Assembly (NCBI GenBank): GCA_030625775.1
Contig: DAOUQC010000036.1
Location: 1 to 45,219 of the forward strand
Source: Verrucomicrobiota bacterium
GTDB taxonomy: Bacteria > Verrucomicrobiota > Verrucomicrobiia > Verrucomicrobiales > DEV007
DNA: 45,219 nt
Direction: 5' to 3'
A model generated the notes under the pieces. It was not told where the DNA came from. It saw nothing but the letters and a program-made list of their open reading frames with translations, and did no database searches. Below are positions 6,770-15,035 of the stretch, in pieces. Position numbers and translations under genes: made by a program. How positions within the stretch are numbered: the first letter of the stretch is position 1; the number at the start of each line of letters is the position of its first letter.

Positions 6770-8662
6770 TTAGTGTCGTTGAAATGCTTCGATGGCTTCA
6801 TACTCCGCCATTCCGAGTTGATCATAACGTCTCGCCGTCGTCTGGTTGCGAACACTGGAATCAAGTTCATCCTGGCTGATTGACTGGAACTTTCGAATCG
6901 CCTCGCGCTTGAGATCCAATTGGTCCGGACTCATCGGCACCGCCATCTCAATCTCATTGGAATTCATTTCACTTTCTTTCCCGCGATACAACCACACCCG
7001 GCAATCTGCCACCCAGGTTTCGTCTTTAAGTTGCTCCATCGCTTGCTCAATCGAACGATAACACAGGGTCTGCAAAGCACTGGGATCGGCCAGATGACCG
7101 GTCGCATAAATTTGATGAGGCTGGTATTCGGCCAGTATCCGGCTTGTTTGCTCCACATCCGCATCCGTCAGTTGGAACTGGCGGTAACGACCCTTTTCAT
7201 AAAAAGGCAAGTCTTGAAAGACAACCGCCTCTGGGTCCAATCCGCAAATGCCTGCCGCATCACGAACCTCTCCCCGTAGAATCAATGCCTTCAAATGCCT
7301 GACGTTTTCAGGATCATCACCAAAAGCCCCCTTCTCTTGCAATTGAACCAAAATCTCACGGGCATAATCCTCCTTACCCGAACTGGTATCACCAATCAGC
7401 TCAGCCACTTCCAGCAACACACTGGCAAATTTCTGCGCTGCCAGATCAGGCACCCGCAATCCCCCCGAAGTCTGGACAATCAGTTTCACCTCGTGGCCCT
7501 GCTCCACCAAGCGGTGAATAGTGCCCGCCAGCGAAGCCACGGCATCACTCGGTTCCGGACTGAAAATGAGAACCCTCTTGGGATGCGGTGAAGCTCGTTC
7601 AGGGCGATGCGCATCATCAGCTCCAGGCTTGCCTCCCGGCCACCCCGTGATGGTATGCTTTACCATATCAAAGACGCCGATGTTCACGTTATAAGCCCGT
7701 CCACTCACCGTCAGCAACTCTCCTGCCCCACATTCATTGTAATCCTCGTCTACCAGTCTAAGGATGGGTTTTTCCAAACGATGGGATAACCAAGTAACGG
7801 CCCGTTGAATCATCTTTGCCTCCCATTTCACCGAGCCTACCAACCAGGGCAGATTTATTCTCGTCAATTGAGACGATGCGGCTTCATCAACCAGGAAAGT
7901 GGCATTGTCGTGATCCTGCAGAAAACTTGCCGAAATCCGATCAGTCACCTCACCCTCTACGGCCTCCTGCACTATCTCTGCTTTATTCCCTCCCCAAGCC
8001 ATCAATACCAGACGCTTTGCGCTCAGGATAGTCCCCACCCCCATTGTAATCGCATTCCGTGGCACATTGGCTTCTCCCAAAAAATCAGCGGCAGCATCGC
8101 GTCGCGTGATGCGGTCCAAAGTGATCATTCGTGTCCTCGAATCCCGTGACGAGCCCGGCTCGTTGAATCCAATATGGCCCGTCCGCCCAATGCCCAGGAT
8201 TTGCAAATCGATGCCCCCTGCATCCTCGATTTTCTTTTCATATTCCAAACAAGACTCATACACCACATCGAGGGAAACCGTGCCGTCGGGAATGTTGATA
8301 TTTCCATTAGGGATGTCGATATGATCAAACAACTGTTCCCGCATGAAGCGATTGTAGCTTTCCCGGTGATCCGACTGTAGCCCGTGATATTCATCAAGAT
8401 TGAAAGTGATGACATTCTGGAAACTCAAACCCTCTTCGCGATGCAAACGAATCAGCTCGCGATAGAAAGGAACCGGAGTCGATCCGGTTGCTAATCCCAA
8501 TACCACGTTTTTCTTTTCGCCCTGCCGCTGCCGAATCAAGCCGGCCACTTCCCCCGCGAGTTGGCTGCAGCCCATGGTTGAATCTTTAACAATCACGCTA
8601 CGCGTCTTCTCGTAGCGTTCTTTTTGCGTCTGTTGCTTGCCTGGTGAATCAAGAATGCTCAT
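6770..8662 (-). CDS. nagB: Glucosamine-6-phosphate deaminase fused to a degenerate PIG-L/LmbE-like domain
   Basis: A 630-residue fusion. Residues 20-290 are a NagB-type deaminase/isomerase that converts glucosamine 6-phosphate to fructose 6-phosphate and ammonia. Visible motifs are the phosphate loop LGLATGSTP, catalytic FNLDEYHGL (Asp90), GRTGHIGFNEPGS (His163) and ITMGVGTIL. Residues 362-600 have the fold signature of PIG-L/LmbE deacetylases, as in the long NagB proteins of Bacteroidota. The zinc-binding HPDD is replaced by EPSD (residues 370-373), and the second metal motif reads DPSALQ (526-531) instead of the usual DPHGTH. The C-terminal domain is therefore probably not a metal deacetylase. 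A 27-bp palindrome begins 2 bp upstream of the ATG, implying repression. The gene indicates amino-sugar use. Confidence 0.88.
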   Translation of the reverse strand: MSILDSPGKQQTQKERYEKTRSVIVKDSTMGCSQLAGEVAGLIRQRQGEKKNVVLGLATGSTPVPFYRELIRLHREEGLSFQNVITFNLDEYHGLQSDHRESYNRFMREQLFDHIDIPNGNINIPDGTVSLDVVYESCLEYEKKIEDAGGIDLQILGIGRTGHIGFNEPGSSRDSRTRMITLDRITRRDAAADFLGEANVPRNAITMGVGTILSAKRLVLMAWGGNKAEIVQEAVEGEVTDRISASFLQDHDNATFLVDEAASSQLTRINLPWLVGSVKWEAKMIQRAVTWLSHRLEKPILRLVDEDYNECGAGELLTVSGRAYNVNIGVFDMVKHTITGWPGGKPGADDAHRPERASPHPKRVLIFSPEPSDAVASLAGTIHRLVEQGHEVKLIVQTSGGLRVPDLAAQKFASVLLEVAELIGDTSSGKEDYAREILVQLQEKGAFGDDPENVRHLKALILRGEVRDAAGICGLDPEAVVFQDLPFYEKGRYRQFQLTDADVEQTSRILAEYQPHQIYATGHLADPSALQTLCYRSIEQAMEQLKDETWVADCRVWLYRGKESEMNSNEIEMAVPMSPDQLDLKREAIRKFQSISQDELDSSVRNQTTARRYDQLGMAEYEAIEAFQRH

Positions 8663-8770: not shown

Positions 8771-10210
8771 ATGAAAACACCTCTGAGACTTCTCAAACAA
8801 ATCTCTGCCACCCTGCTCTTCACGCTCATTGCACTGACGTTTTCCCCCACCCAGGCCGCAGACGGCAAACCCAATTTCATCGTCATTTTTGCGGATGACC
8901 TCGGTTACGGTGACCTCTCCTGCTTTGGTCACCCTACCATCACAACCCCCAATCTTGATCAAATGGCCGCCGAAGGTCAAAAGTGGACCAATTTTTATGT
9001 GGCTGCTTGTGTCTGTACCCCCAGCCGCGCAGGACTGCTGACCGGGCGACTGCCCATCCGCAACGGTATGTGCTCGGACACCCGCCGGGTTTTATTTCCC
9101 AACTCAGCAGGCGGCCTTCCACCAACTGAAATCACTATCGCCAAATTCCTCAAACAAAACGGTTACCAGACCGCGGCAATTGGTAAATGGCATCTGGGAC
9201 ATCTGCCACAATACCTCCCCACCTCGCACGGTTTCGATTCTTATTACGGAATCCCATATTCCAACGACATGGACCGCATCGTCAAAGGATCCAATGTCGA
9301 TCTGGCCAACAAGGAAGATTATAAAGCTTATGATCTGCCCCTGATGCGCAATACCGAAGTCATCGAACGCCCTGTGGATCAACGCACCATCACGAAACGT
9401 TATACCGAAGAAGCGGTTAAATTTATCCATCACGCACAGGAAAAAGGAGACTCAGCCAAACCCTACTTTATTTATCTCGCCCACAATCTGCCCCATGTGC
9501 CGCTTTTCCGCTCGGAAAAATTCAAAGACAGCAGCCTCGCCGGAATCTATGGCGATGTGATTGCAGAAATCGACTGGTCGGTTGGCCAGGTCATGAAAGC
9601 CGTGAAAGAAACCTCTGAAAAATCACCTCACTCACAGACCTACGTAATCTTCACATCCGACAATGGCCCTTGGCTGACTTACAAAACCCATGGGGGATCA
9701 GCCGGCCTGTTGCGTGATGGCAAAGGCTCCACCTGGGAGGGCGGCATGCGGGAGCCCACCGCCATGTGGGCCTGGCCCAAGCAAGTGAACAGTGGAGTCG
9801 TCCAGGAAATGGGCAGCACTTTGGATCTGCTGCCTACTTTTGCCTCTTTGATGGGAGCCAAGCTGCCAAACGACCGCACCTATGACGGCTACGATTTGTC
9901 CCCTGTCCTACTTGGCACGGGCCCCAGTCAGAGAAAGGAAATGTTCTACTACCACGGCGCCCAACTTTTTGCGGTTCGCTCAGGACAATACAAAGCCCAT
10001 TTCAAAACCAAAACCTCCTATGTCAAAGGCAAAAAAATGGAAGAGCACAATCCCCCCTTGCTTTATCACCTTGGTCACGATCCCAGCGAAAAATACGACA
10101 TCTCCAAGGATCATCCGGACATTATCGAGAAAATCAAACAACTGGCCGCTGAGCACAAAGCCGGGATAAAACCCGTAAAAAACCAGCTGCTCGGAAAAAT
10201 TGAAGGCTGA
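8771..10210 (+). CDS. Secreted sulfatase (arylsulfatase family, type I)
   Basis: A 479-residue exported type I sulfatase. The signal peptide covers residues 1-30 (KQISATLLFTLIALTF, cleavage near TQAA). Metal ligands lie in FADDLGYGD. The active-site signature C82-T-P-S-R-A-G-L-L-T-G has the cysteine that is converted to formylglycine. GKWHLGH and TSDNGPW supply the other conserved metal and sulfate ligands. The family removes sulfate esters from glycans, and the S1 subfamily cannot be set by eye. It is divergent from nagB across a palindromic operator, so shared control with amino-sugar use is plausible. No formylglycine-generating enzyme is seen in this window. Confidence 0.93.
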   Translation: MKTPLRLLKQISATLLFTLIALTFSPTQAADGKPNFIVIFADDLGYGDLSCFGHPTITTPNLDQMAAEGQKWTNFYVAACVCTPSRAGLLTGRLPIRNGMCSDTRRVLFPNSAGGLPPTEITIAKFLKQNGYQTAAIGKWHLGHLPQYLPTSHGFDSYYGIPYSNDMDRIVKGSNVDLANKEDYKAYDLPLMRNTEVIERPVDQRTITKRYTEEAVKFIHHAQEKGDSAKPYFIYLAHNLPHVPLFRSEKFKDSSLAGIYGDVIAEIDWSVGQVMKAVKETSEKSPHSQTYVIFTSDNGPWLTYKTHGGSAGLLRDGKGSTWEGGMREPTAMWAWPKQVNSGVVQEMGSTLDLLPTFASLMGAKLPNDRTYDGYDLSPVLLGTGPSQRKEMFYYHGAQLFAVRSGQYKAHFKTKTSYVKGKKMEEHNPPLLYHLGHDPSEKYDISKDHPDIIEKIKQLAAEHKAGIKPVKNQLLGKIEG

Positions 10211-10338: not shown

Positions 10339-10947
10339 CTAAGCCGCTGCCTGAAGATCGTCCATACTCCACACCCCGTTAAAGTGATCCTGCAATCCGG
10401 ACTTCGCCCGGTGAATCAACACCCAAAGATTACTCTTGGTGATATTGAGGGATCGGGTGATTTCCTCTGTGGATAAACCTTGTATCTCACGCATACGGAA
10501 CACCCTGCCAGAAAGATCCGGCAAACGGGCAATACCCTCGTCAAGTTGCTGTATGAACTCAAAGCGTTCGGTATTCTTGGCAGGATTAAACCGATCGCTG
10601 GCTACGGCATGTCGATCGAGCCATGCCTCACTGCTGCTAGAATCCTCCCGGGCATAACCCTCCAAATCCGTCTCAGTCATCAGCGGACGACGCGAAGTCC
10701 GTCGGTAGTGATCAATGATTTTATTTCGCAACACACCCGTCAACCAGGTCTTTTCACTGCAGTTACCTTGAAAATTTTCCCTGGCCGACCAGACAGACAA
10801 AAACGTATCCTGGACGAGATCCTCCGCGATCCCCTGATCAGACACCTTCTTTCGTGCAAAATTCACCAGGTATTCTTGATAATCACGAATCCAGGATTCC
10901 GGATTCAATTGATGCTTCCCTTTGTTCTCAGTGCGTTCTCTTTTCAT
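10339..10947 (-). CDS. ECF RNA polymerase sigma factor
   Basis: A 202-residue sigma-70 family factor of the ECF group. Region 2 is visible at residues 22-90 with the core-binding DLVQDTFLSVW segment and the -10-recognising WLTGVLRNKIIDHYRR. Region 4 lies at residues 130-190 with the helix-turn-helix LSTEEITRSLNITKSNLWVLIHRAK. The linker between them is long, about 45 residues. The TSNxWVLIHRAR-type helix recalls the TIGR02943-like sigma factors (family impression). No anti-sigma gene follows. The ATG at 10947 is preceded at 10970-10983 by the palindrome that also lies before the TetR gene 56 bp upstream, so its expression is probably repressed by that TetR protein. Targets are unknown. Confidence 0.9.
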   Translation of the reverse strand: MKRERTENKGKHQLNPESWIRDYQEYLVNFARKKVSDQGIAEDLVQDTFLSVWSARENFQGNCSEKTWLTGVLRNKIIDHYRRTSRRPLMTETDLEGYAREDSSSSEAWLDRHAVASDRFNPAKNTERFEFIQQLDEGIARLPDLSGRVFRMREIQGLSTEEITRSLNITKSNLWVLIHRAKSGLQDHFNGVWSMDDLQAAA

Positions 10948-10969
10948 GACGTTTTAGGTGTTAGTCTAG

Positions 10970-10983
10970 ACAGACCAGTCTGT
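10970..10983. promoter_or_regulatory. TetR-type operator copy 2 (before the ECF sigma gene)
   Basis: ACAGAC-CA-GTCTGT, a perfect 6-bp inverted repeat with a 2-bp centre, 22 bp upstream of the sigma start. An overlapping GTCTAGAC palindrome lies at 10964-10971. The arms are identical to the site before the TetR gene. Confidence 0.72.
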
Positions 10984-11003
10984 TTCTTTTTCGGTAAAAA
11001 AAT

Positions 11004-11579
11004 CTATTTTTGTTGCTCTTGTTCACACCTTTCGCGCGCCGCACGCCTCGCCGCACGAACTGGCCAGATGGCACGGAGATTTTGAGCCTCCATCGTAGCC
11101 CCTGAATAAAGCAGGAAGAATTCATCACCGATCTCTTTAGCCCGGCTGTCGGTTGCTGTGAATTGTCTTGCCAAATCACGGAAAAAATCCCGAATTGAAA
11201 TTTTGTGTTCTTCAATCTTTTTGCGGATTGGCTCACAACAGGCTTCAGTGATGGAGCTAGTATTGGTAAACGGACATCCCCTGAACTGCCTCTCTTCGAG
11301 GAATCGTTCCAAATCAGTAAAATACTGATCAATTTTTTCCACAGGCTCTTCAGGCGATTTCAAAATAGCTGCCCTCGCACCCTCCGAACCTTCGTGCATG
11401 CTATCCAACCAGGTCACACACAAATCCTCTTTTGAAGGGAAATGCTGATAAAAAGTCGCTTTTGCGGTACCCGCTTCTTCGATAATCTGATTCACCCCCA
11501 CACCGCAATAGCCATTTTCATAGAACAGCCTACCAGCTGTTTCCAGAATTCTCTCTCTCGCATTTCCCTTTTTTGTCAT
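11004..11579 (-). CDS. TetR/AcrR-family transcriptional regulator
   Basis: A 191-residue TetR-type repressor. The DNA-binding domain is at residues 7-55: RERILETAGRLFYENG, then the recognition helix region KATFYQHFPSKEDL. The C-terminal ligand domain contains Cys67 or thereabouts (CVTW), a CPFTN segment and an EACCEPI segment, so several cysteines are present; whether they sense thiol-reactive ligands is speculation. The gene starts 20 bp from an ACAGAC-TT-GTCTGT palindrome, suggesting autoregulation, and the same arms recur before the sigma gene downstream. The gap to the sigma gene is 56 bp, so the two may also be co-transcribed. Confidence 0.92.
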   Translation of the reverse strand: MTKKGNARERILETAGRLFYENGYCGVGVNQIIEEAGTAKATFYQHFPSKEDLCVTWLDSMHEGSEGARAAILKSPEEPVEKIDQYFTDLERFLEERQFRGCPFTNTSSITEACCEPIRKKIEEHKISIRDFFRDLARQFTATDSRAKEIGDEFFLLYSGATMEAQNLRAIWPVRAARRAARERCEQEQQK

Positions 11580-11599
11580 CCTGCAAACACAATAAACAG

Positions 11600-11613
11600 A
11601 CAGACTTGTCTGT
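11600..11613. promoter_or_regulatory. TetR-type operator copy 1 (before the TetR gene)
   Basis: ACAGAC-TT-GTCTGT, a perfect 6-bp inverted repeat with a 2-bp centre, 20 bp upstream of the TetR start codon. It overlaps a further AGAC half-site at 11598-11601. Confidence 0.74.
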
Positions 11614-11638
11614 AAAGTTTTTTATGAAATAATTTTTA

Positions 11639-11837: not shown

Positions 11838-14800
11838 ATGAAAAACCGCCTTCTCTGTCTTTGCTCTCTCTTACTCACTTCAGCCTTTTGTCATCTGACC
11901 TTAACCGCTGCAGAAAAAGAAAATGCTGCCACACTGGCAAAAATCCACGGAGGAGCAGTGGTTCAACTTGGAGCTGCCAACACCGAAACAGCAACTGATC
12001 TAGCCAAAACCGGCCGATACATCATCAATTTGCTGGATTCCGATGCCAAGGCCGTAGCCAAAGCTCAAACGGCTTTACACAAAAACGCTATTTATGGTGT
12101 TGCATCAGCTGAAACCCTGGCTGATTTCTCCCACCTCCCCTACACCGAAAATTTAATCAACCTGATCATTGCAGACTCAAGCCCTGCCAAAGCAAAGGAA
12201 ATTTTCCGGGTACTGGTTCCCGACGGGGCTCTGGTTGTTACCAATCCCGGTTCGCTGAACAAAATCAATCTCAAGGATGCGGGTTTTCTCAACATCCAGG
12301 AAGTCCCGGATCCCAACGGCGGAAACAAAAACTGGATTGTGGCTCACAAACCCTGGCCCGACAACATGGGCCATTGGTCACACCCGCGCCATGATTCCAA
12401 TGGCAATGCCGTTTCACCTGACACCGCAGTGGGTGAACCCCGACGCATCCGCTGGATCGCTGGTCATTCCGGCAGTGAAGTCGAAGGCATGGTCAGCGAT
12501 GATGGACGTAATTTTTACGGGCAATCCCTCACCCGTGACAGTTTCAACGGTCTGCGTTTGTGGCATCGCAATCTCGCCCTTGCGGAAGACAAAATGGATC
12601 CGGCTAAATTTACCATGACGAGACTGAGCCGCGATTACGCCCGTCCCGTTGCGACTGAGAAATACCTTTTTGCGGTTGCCTTCCCCACCAAGAACCTCGT
12701 TGCAATCGATTCTGTGACTGGTGAGATTGTGCGTTCCTTCCCGGAAATCGTAAAACCAAAAGAACTGGTGCAACACAAGGGAACCGTAGTGGCTACCGCC
12801 CAGACTGGAATCTATGCGTTCAGCACGGAAACCGGAGATATTCTCTGGAAAAAAGAATCCTCCTCACCGCGCACTATTGTCGCTGGCAGTGATCGCGTAA
12901 GTTACATCCAGGGCGAGCCACGAAAGGGAGAAAAGTCCGAAGCGGTCACCGTCGATCTTTATTCCGGCAAAGTTCTGTGGAAAAATTCCGACTACCCCTG
13001 GCTCGACAAAGTCAGACGCAGCGTACTTTATGGCGATCAACTCACCTACGAAGTTTCCAGCTTCAATAACAGTGATACCGACAACGGAATTCACATCGTT
13101 GATGCCAAAAATGGCGATCTCACCTGGGAAAAAACTTATGCGCCCGGCATGAACCACGCACGCCAGGCCCGCGCCATGTTCATCGGTGATGACCTGTGGA
13201 TCCAACAGGGCGGAAAGGTCGACTATGATGACAAGGAAAAAGCAAAATTCCAGCCGGTTGAAGTGGTATCCATTGACCGGAAAACCGGCGAAGCCAAAAA
13301 GAGCTACGCTGCCGGACTCGGCCATTGTGCCCCTCCTGTCGCTACGGTCAACATGATCTTCTCCGGAGTGGTGGAAATGACCAATCTGATTACCGGCGAA
13401 CTGGTCACCAACTCCATCACCAAGTCTAACTGCTCAAGTGAAAACGGATTCATCCCGGCAAACGGATTAATTTACGCGACACCAAAACACTGCACCTGCT
13501 GGCCAATGCTGCGTGGTTATGTTGCCATGGCCCCCGAGCATCCCGGTTTGAAAAAAGGTACTTACCCGCCTGATTTTCCTGCTGAGAAAATCAACTTCAT
13601 CCTGACCCAAGAAGGTGCCAAAGCAGATCCCAAAGCGACCAAACCTTCCGCCTCTGATTGGCCAATGTATCGTCACGATGCCTGGCGCAGTTCCAGCTCC
13701 ACAACTGCGGGTCCCAAACAGACCAATGTTCTCTGGTCAGCAGCAATCGCCCCGAAACAAGATCCCCTCACAGATTCCAGCCCACTTCTCTTTGACTGGA
13801 ATGACAACCCCTTTGTTAAAGGACGCCTTAGCCCACCTACTATCGCCAACGGTATCGCCTACGTCGCTCGTCCCGATGCCCATGAAGTTGTTGCGATTAA
13901 CACCGCTAGTGGCAAAGTCGTATGGCGCTTCACCGCTCGCGGACGGGTGGATACTCCACCCACCATCCACAATGGTCTGGCCCTGTTTGGTGATCATGGC
14001 GGCTATGTTCACGCTGTAAGAGCTGACAATGGCAAACCTGTCTGGCGTTTCCAAGCCTCCCCCATCGACGAACGCATGGGCGCTTACGGACAGATCGAAT
14101 CCGCCTGGCCGGTTGCCGGTTCGGTTTTGATCTCGGATGACAAAGCTTATTTTGTTGCCGGACGTCAGGAACTTTCCGACGGCGGTGTATTCATTTTTTC
14201 CGTCGACCCAATGACTGGTGAAAAGCAGTGGGTGCACAAGCTCAACAACATCCCGCAGAAAAGTTACGACGGCACCAACGATGAGTCGTTCGGTTTCTAC
14301 AAAAACTCAGGGCTCGAATTTGACCCCGTTGATTTGCTGCACAAAGAAGGTGACCGCATCGCCATGTCACGTTGGATGATTTCAAAAGACGGCAAAGAAA
14401 TTGAAGTCGATACCTGGAACGGTTTTGCCAAACTCAACACCGGAAAAGGATCGGTTTACGCCCCTCGGGGAACCTGGACTTACGGCTTCCGCCAGATCCA
14501 CCGCTTCTCCAATGAAGCCTTCAAACGTCCATTGGCTGCATGGCGAGACAATACCATCATCGGTGCACTCAACAGCACCACTGCTCTTTACCGTCGCGAT
14601 TTCGACCTTGAGAACGGTGAAGAGTTCAATAGCAAATGGATCACCGGATGGCAGGCCGCAGGTGAAGGCCGCAAAGGTGGCAGACCTTACCGCAGTGACC
14701 GCATTGCTGAAAAAGCCGCGTGGAAGGTCAATCCATGGACCGACAGTTCTGACCCCAAAAAACTTCTCGAACCCACCACCGTCGAAGGCAAGAAGCAGAT

Positions 14801-15035
14801 GGAAAACAAACTCTACGGCATGGTGATGGATTCACAGGATCGCCTTTATGTTGTGCATCAGGACGGCACACTGAAAGTGATCAATAGCAAGGACGGATCA
14901 ACTCTTTCCGAAAGCAAAGTCCCCGCCCCCATGTGGGATGGACTCGCACTGGCAGACGGCAAGCTTTTCCTCAGCACCGCTGATGGACAGCTGGTCTGCA
15001 TCGGTGATGGCGCCAAAGTCGCTGATGCTCGTTAA
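11838..15035 (+). CDS. Exported PQQ-like beta-propeller protein with methyltransferase-like N-terminal domain
   Basis: A 1065-residue exported protein. The ATG at 11838 gives a signal peptide (CLCSLLLTSAFCHLTLTAA); a TTG at 11808 would only add ten residues ahead of it. Residues 35-175 look like the C-terminal half of a SAM-methyltransferase fold (LINLIIADSSPAKAKEIFRV, then LVPDGALVVTNPG), but no GxGxG SAM-binding loop is seen. Residues 190-1060 contain repeated PQQ/BamB-type beta-propeller blades (VAIDSVTGEIV, GLALFGDHGGYVHAVRADNG, KVVWRF, DGQLVCIGDG). A CSSENGF / CTCW cysteine cluster lies near residues 535-555. Such fusions occur in PVC bacteria, and the activity is unknown; a quinoprotein dehydrogenase or a scaffold are both possible. 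Confidence 0.87.
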   Translation: MKNRLLCLCSLLLTSAFCHLTLTAAEKENAATLAKIHGGAVVQLGAANTETATDLAKTGRYIINLLDSDAKAVAKAQTALHKNAIYGVASAETLADFSHLPYTENLINLIIADSSPAKAKEIFRVLVPDGALVVTNPGSLNKINLKDAGFLNIQEVPDPNGGNKNWIVAHKPWPDNMGHWSHPRHDSNGNAVSPDTAVGEPRRIRWIAGHSGSEVEGMVSDDGRNFYGQSLTRDSFNGLRLWHRNLALAEDKMDPAKFTMTRLSRDYARPVATEKYLFAVAFPTKNLVAIDSVTGEIVRSFPEIVKPKELVQHKGTVVATAQTGIYAFSTETGDILWKKESSSPRTIVAGSDRVSYIQGEPRKGEKSEAVTVDLYSGKVLWKNSDYPWLDKVRRSVLYGDQLTYEVSSFNNSDTDNGIHIVDAKNGDLTWEKTYAPGMNHARQARAMFIGDDLWIQQGGKVDYDDKEKAKFQPVEVVSIDRKTGEAKKSYAAGLGHCAPPVATVNMIFSGVVEMTNLITGELVTNSITKSNCSSENGFIPANGLIYATPKHCTCWPMLRGYVAMAPEHPGLKKGTYPPDFPAEKINFILTQEGAKADPKATKPSASDWPMYRHDAWRSSSSTTAGPKQTNVLWSAAIAPKQDPLTDSSPLLFDWNDNPFVKGRLSPPTIANGIAYVARPDAHEVVAINTASGKVVWRFTARGRVDTPPTIHNGLALFGDHGGYVHAVRADNGKPVWRFQASPIDERMGAYGQIESAWPVAGSVLISDDKAYFVAGRQELSDGGVFIFSVDPMTGEKQWVHKLNNIPQKSYDGTNDESFGFYKNSGLEFDPVDLLHKEGDRIAMSRWMISKDGKEIEVDTWNGFAKLNTGKGSVYAPRGTWTYGFRQIHRFSNEAFKRPLAAWRDNTIIGALNSTTALYRRDFDLENGEEFNSKWITGWQAAGEGRKGGRPYRSDRIAEKAAWKVNPWTDSSDPKKLLEPTTVEGKKQMENKLYGMVMDSQDRLYVVHQDGTLKVINSKDGSTLSESKVPAPMWDGLALADGKLFLSTADGQLVCIGDGAKVADAR

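Follow-up and report, generated by a model that had tools for sequence, protein, structure and literature searches.

A conserved putative operator shared by a NemR-like TetR repressor gene and an ECF sigma factor gene suggests a thiol/electrophile-responsive switch in a family of Verrucomicrobiota

In the 45,219-nucleotide stretch of a Verrucomicrobiota genome analysed here (the window), a gene encoding a TetR-type repressor is followed on the minus strand, across a gap of 56 bp, by a gene encoding an ECF sigma factor (Table 1). The 14-bp palindrome ACAGAC-NN-GTCTGT is found 5' of each, as ACAGACTTGTCTGT 20 bp from the ATG of tetR (operator 1) and as ACAGACCAGTCTGT inside the gap, 22 bp from the ATG of the sigma gene (operator 2). 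Both copies are exact, and the positions and spacings reported for them in the initial annotation were all reproduced; the conserved operator extends further, to ACAGAC-NN-GTCTGT-CTGT, and is longer than the palindrome first described. A sulfatase gene (window 8771-10210) converges on the sigma gene, as it does in several relatives bearing the pair (L007, L008 and L009), and beyond it lies a gene (6770-8662) for a 630-aa protein with a glucosamine-6-phosphate deaminase domain and a PIG-L-type deacetylase-like domain. Divergent from tetR, a gene at 11841-15035 encodes a 1064-aa beta-propeller protein of the PQQ/BamB type. In two sister genomes (L008 and L010) the region 5' of tetR holds a TolC-like gene and a membrane-fusion-like gene with a heavy-metal-binding-like motif (WTCSMHPQVQQ).

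Table 1. Features of the tetR-sigma locus in the window, and small-protein genes at other loci
Feature	Position	Strand	Basis or remark
NemR-like TetR repressor, 191 aa (Cys54, Cys102, Cys115)	11004..11579	-	Pfam TetR_N and LmrA/YxaF-like C-terminal domain; model; cysteine pattern
202-aa ECF sigma factor with only regions 2 and 4	10339..10947	-	Sigma70_r2, Sigma70_r4_2
Operator 1 (predicted), 5' of tetR	11600..11613; extended form 11596-11613	.	exact motif; conservation
Operator 2 (predicted), tetR-sigma gap	10970..10983	.	exact motif; conservation
TTTACA, predicted -35 box for tetR, overlaps operator 1	11611..11616	-	highest-scoring conserved position when 29 upstream regions are aligned
TATTGT, predicted -10 box for tetR, 16 bp from the -35 box	11589..11594	-	TATnnT conserved at this spacing
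T-tract directly following the tetR stop codon, ~15-20 bp ahead of operator 2	10996..11002	-	conserved column block, 26 loci
Small protein, examples	L008:5392-5562, L009:1430-1600, L010:5397-5567, L122-L147		no Pfam match

The nearest relatives are Verrucomicrobiota assemblies. When 75 genomes from this family were searched, 38 sigma homologues reached 189 bits or more, and 35 of these adjoin a TetR homologue; the gene pair is conserved together with the two operator sites in about 30 related species. Among 289 sampled genomes of the phylum the next best sigma homologues were far more distant (164 bits at best, against 379 for the window sigma) and those inspected had no TetR neighbour, so that the tetR-sigma pair appears to be confined to this one bacterial family.

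The C-terminal domain of the repressor, which follows a TetR_N domain, is LmrA/YxaF-like according to Pfam, and the predicted structure of the protein (pLDDT 92) has E. coli NemR (PDB 4yze) as its top Foldseek match, with a TM of 0.80; a profile match to the same entry (E 1.3e-19) indicates full-length similarity to NemR. Cys102 aligns with Cys106 of NemR, and all 50 aligned relatives have it. Cys115 occurs in 30 of the 32 sigma-linked TetRs and in none of the 18 others, while the corresponding counts for Cys54 are 32 of 32 and 15 of 18; since the sigma-linked TetRs form one clade, Cys115 may be a marker of ancestry rather than a functional residue. In the 4yze alignment, the NemR residues Lys175, Cys21 and Cys116 are not conserved, and Cys115 lies near Cys116 without aligning with it. 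Consequently, the exact chemistry of NemR cannot apply, and the repressor may work like NemR but is not classed as one. In relatives that lack the sigma, the same kind of site is found near a gene for a flavin reductase of the OYE type (L015, L017), a nitroreductase (L013, L016), thioredoxin (L121) or a DUF1348 protein (L023-L025); relatives with this site lie ahead of the reductase, nitroreductase or thioredoxin genes and probably control them directly. NemR itself acts as the repressor of a glyoxalase and of an OYE-type reductase, and senses electrophiles and HOCl via its cysteines (PMC7464077). An early guess, made from the cysteines of the TetR protein, was that its ligand is reactive, and this is strengthened, as far as the model and the alignments go, by NemR being the top fold match, by one invariant cysteine and by a second that tracks the sigma output. 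A second TetR of the same family, 41% identical, is encoded elsewhere in the genome (L032, G000:C154:5078-5617) and is followed by a DUF1348 (SnoaL-like) gene.

Alternatively, the repressor might govern both genes but respond to a small molecule that it binds non-covalently in the ordinary way, as LmrA/YxaF or QacR do, with a structural role for the cysteines. Many members of this fold bind their ligands non-covalently, and the C-terminal domain of the present protein does score as LmrA/YxaF-like. However, Cys102 is invariant at the redox position of NemR, Cys115 is tied to the sigma-linked TetRs, and the neighbours in the relatives are reductases or thioredoxin; we consider a non-covalent inducer a minority possibility, although the best placed of the alternatives.

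The sigma factor has the plain ECF architecture, comprising regions 2 and 4 without region 1.1 or 3, and its closest model is TIGR02943, at a score (136.4 bits) under the family cut-off of 162.2. As a rule, an ECF sigma factor is kept in check by an anti-sigma factor. The window sigma had been described at the outset as having no such partner, and in fact none appears to be adjacent: the next gene follows at only 128 bp, and the HxxxCxxC motif is absent within 700 nt downstream of the sigma gene in 30 distinct loci. In contrast, a paralogous sigma of the same genome (C133:18279-18836, within L241, G000:C133:16000-21000), 37% identical to the window sigma, is followed by a 96-aa protein with HxxxCxxC, the usual arrangement, as in zinc-binding anti-sigmas.

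In sister genera a conserved small protein of ~43-60 aa, with the consensus M-ELARQIIRQQWPLRH--DP--R-QARSLIRTHV-LLR-W, is encoded downstream of the sigma. Its gene was found in 25 of the 75 family genomes, in sigma-bearing genera and mostly directly after the sigma; the window's genus lacks it, as do several genomes that have the sigma. The model is a confident helical hairpin (pLDDT 87) for which the fold search returned no significant match; the protein has no Pfam match and no zinc motif. Upstream of this gene, GTCAC-N15-[AG][AG]CA[AT] occurs in 17 of 26 regions, compared with 0-2 for each of the other spacings between 8 and 25 and with 0.05 for shuffles, and copies distant from the sigma gene still carry the element. 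We infer that GTCAC-N15-RRCAA is the kind of promoter that an ECF sigma would read, its -35 part resembling the TGTCAC of ECF41 promoters, and that the small-protein gene is likely the best candidate for a sigma target in the sister genera. The same element is located 49 bp before trxA in G304 (L208) and 75 bp before it in G301 (L224), and is degraded in G311; it is absent before trxA in most other relatives, and thioredoxin was set aside as a general target of the sigma and kept as a lead only. No regulon emerged in the window genome, where TGTCAC-N15-GACAA with at most one mismatch matched 78 places, versus 68 for the reversed control, and where its single exact copy lies inside a gene. A wider regulon in 15 sister genomes was likewise rejected; there were 69 matches at N15, against 42 at the in-frame N18 control, and part of the excess is the small-protein gene itself.

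Sigma factors often drive the gene of their own anti-sigma, and the small protein may accordingly be seen as an unrecognised anti-sigma, in which case the sigma of the sister genera would not be truly free of an inhibitor. Its frequency in sigma-bearing genera, its usual place straight after the sigma and its ECF-like promoter would all fit such a role. Nevertheless, genomes of the window's genus and several others have the sigma and no small protein, and neither Pfam, nor the fold search, nor a zinc motif points to an anti-sigma; we regard this as unlikely, and somewhat more so than a non-covalent inducer.

Returning to the NemR-like repressor and its operators, the alignment of 29 upstream regions of tetR yields ACTTTACAGACAAGTCTGTCTGTTTATnnT, in which TTTACA and TATnnT boxes are separated by 16 bp, and operator 1 overlaps the TTTACA box and fills the spacer of this conserved promoter (TTTACA-N16-TATnnT). 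Given this geometry, repression of tetR would be expected to operate by blocking RNA polymerase. At operator 2, no housekeeping promoter stands out in the alignment, which shows only the conserved T-tract. Both sites are kept in relatives that have the gene pair; a lack of such conservation had been named in the initial annotation as grounds against its proposal. Of 32 loci, the window included, 31 have operator 1 with no more than one mismatch; operator 2 is found with at most two mismatches in 28 of them (24 with at most one) and is missing from the other four, whereas the shuffled-sequence control gives well under one locus. Loci L007-L011, apparently from the same genomes as five of the 32, were not counted twice. 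In genome G308 the two genes are unlinked, the sigma being on contig 33 and the TetR on contig 1; here the sigma gene is preceded by two exact operators, ACAGACCGGTCTGT and ACAGACAAGTCTGT, and the TetR gene has an operator with one mismatch ~39 bp 5' of its start. We take this genome as the clearest sign that the site would serve the sigma gene, beyond autoregulation of the TetR alone. Genome G315, which was handled as a diverged system, counts against the proposed switch: it has sigma genes without operators and also TetRs without operators, one of them lacking Cys115.

A further alternative is that the TetR regulates only itself, operator 2 being a leftover and the sigma gene being read through from the tetR promoter. 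Operator 2 is indeed the less well kept of the two sites and has no clear promoter, but its retention in most loci and the two operators that the unlinked G308 sigma has of its own make this improbable; read-through from the tetR promoter would still put the sigma under TetR control. In the whole 4.88 Mb genome the exact 14-bp motif has two copies, both at the tetR-sigma locus; many unrelated copies across the genome would, according to the initial annotation, have refuted its proposal. One-mismatch copies occur in four further places, equal to the number from the reversed-pattern control and with none at a promoter, and were rejected as additional operators. Two-mismatch matches are common at the size of the window (chance mean 1.2), yet a chance repeat is refuted for the two palindromes, to the point of being negligible, by exact copies unique in the genome and conserved over dozens of divergent loci.

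Based on these sequence features, a repressor of the type in which cysteines sense reactive chemicals very probably controls an adjacent sigma factor that lacks the usual inhibitor, and we assign a probability of about 0.7 to the whole explanation, namely a switch in which a NemR-like TetR gates the sigma on thiol/electrophile stress. The circuit first predicted, in which release of the TetR switches on a lone sigma, finds support in the unique exact operators and in the conservation of the pair and its sites. We hypothesize that a dimer of the repressor binds operator 1, which overlaps the -35 box and the spacer in the tetR promoter, as well as operator 2 before the sigma gene, so that both genes would be kept low. 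An electrophile or thiol-oxidising compound would then modify Cys102, probably together with Cys115 in a nearby loop, the modified repressor would come off its operators, allowing tetR and the sigma gene to be expressed. As there is no anti-sigma, sigma activity would depend on how much of the protein is present, and newly made TetR would close the circuit.

The closest known counterpart of the repressor is the NemR-nemA-gloA system of E. coli, which has in common with the present locus the TetR fold, a cysteine at the Cys106 position and an autoregulated gene upstream of its target, and relatives of the TetR described here also adjoin OYE-type reductases. It differs in that the output here is a sigma factor and in that the operator is another one, besides the NemR residues that are not conserved. 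TIGR02943-type sigmas with a zinc anti-sigma represent the closest family on the sigma side, with the paralogue of the same genome as an example, but the window sigma falls below the cut-off and has the TetR in place of an anti-sigma partner. Like HrpL, SigE and SigQ, which have no anti-sigma, it would have its activity set by transcription of its own gene; those sigma genes, however, depend on two-component or enhancer-binding activation, whereas release of a one-component repressor is proposed here. For ECF203, which has a Streptomyces protein as its representative, a review considers regulation by TetR repressors conserved in the neighbourhood possible, and PadR repressors adjoin ECF265 (PMC8999054). 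ECF203 resembles our locus in arrangement, as a lone ECF sigma gene with proposed TetR control (PMC8999054), and differs from it in that the present sigma comes from Verrucomicrobiota and is closest to TIGR02943, and in that operators are identified here. The initial annotation had called a small-molecule-gated sigma factor uncommon; the gating is supported by our analysis, but a lack of precedent is not, in view of the proposal for ECF203 (PMC8999054). In the open-access literature we found no experimentally shown TetR-gated ECF sigma, the gating of sigma genes by one-component repressors having so far been proposed from gene neighbourhoods.

As for its origin, we tentatively suggest, as the less likely turn of events, that a cysteine-gated TetR took over an ECF sigma of a type that an anti-sigma normally restrains, by which a local detoxification switch would have become a cascade, with the small protein as a dedicated output or a feedback inhibitor in the sister genera. 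The locus represents a compact and testable case, with two defined operators and named cysteines, and with a promoter motif and a candidate target in the sister genera. It also suggests a route by which bacteria may give a reactive-chemical sensor a sigma factor as its output in place of a single enzyme.
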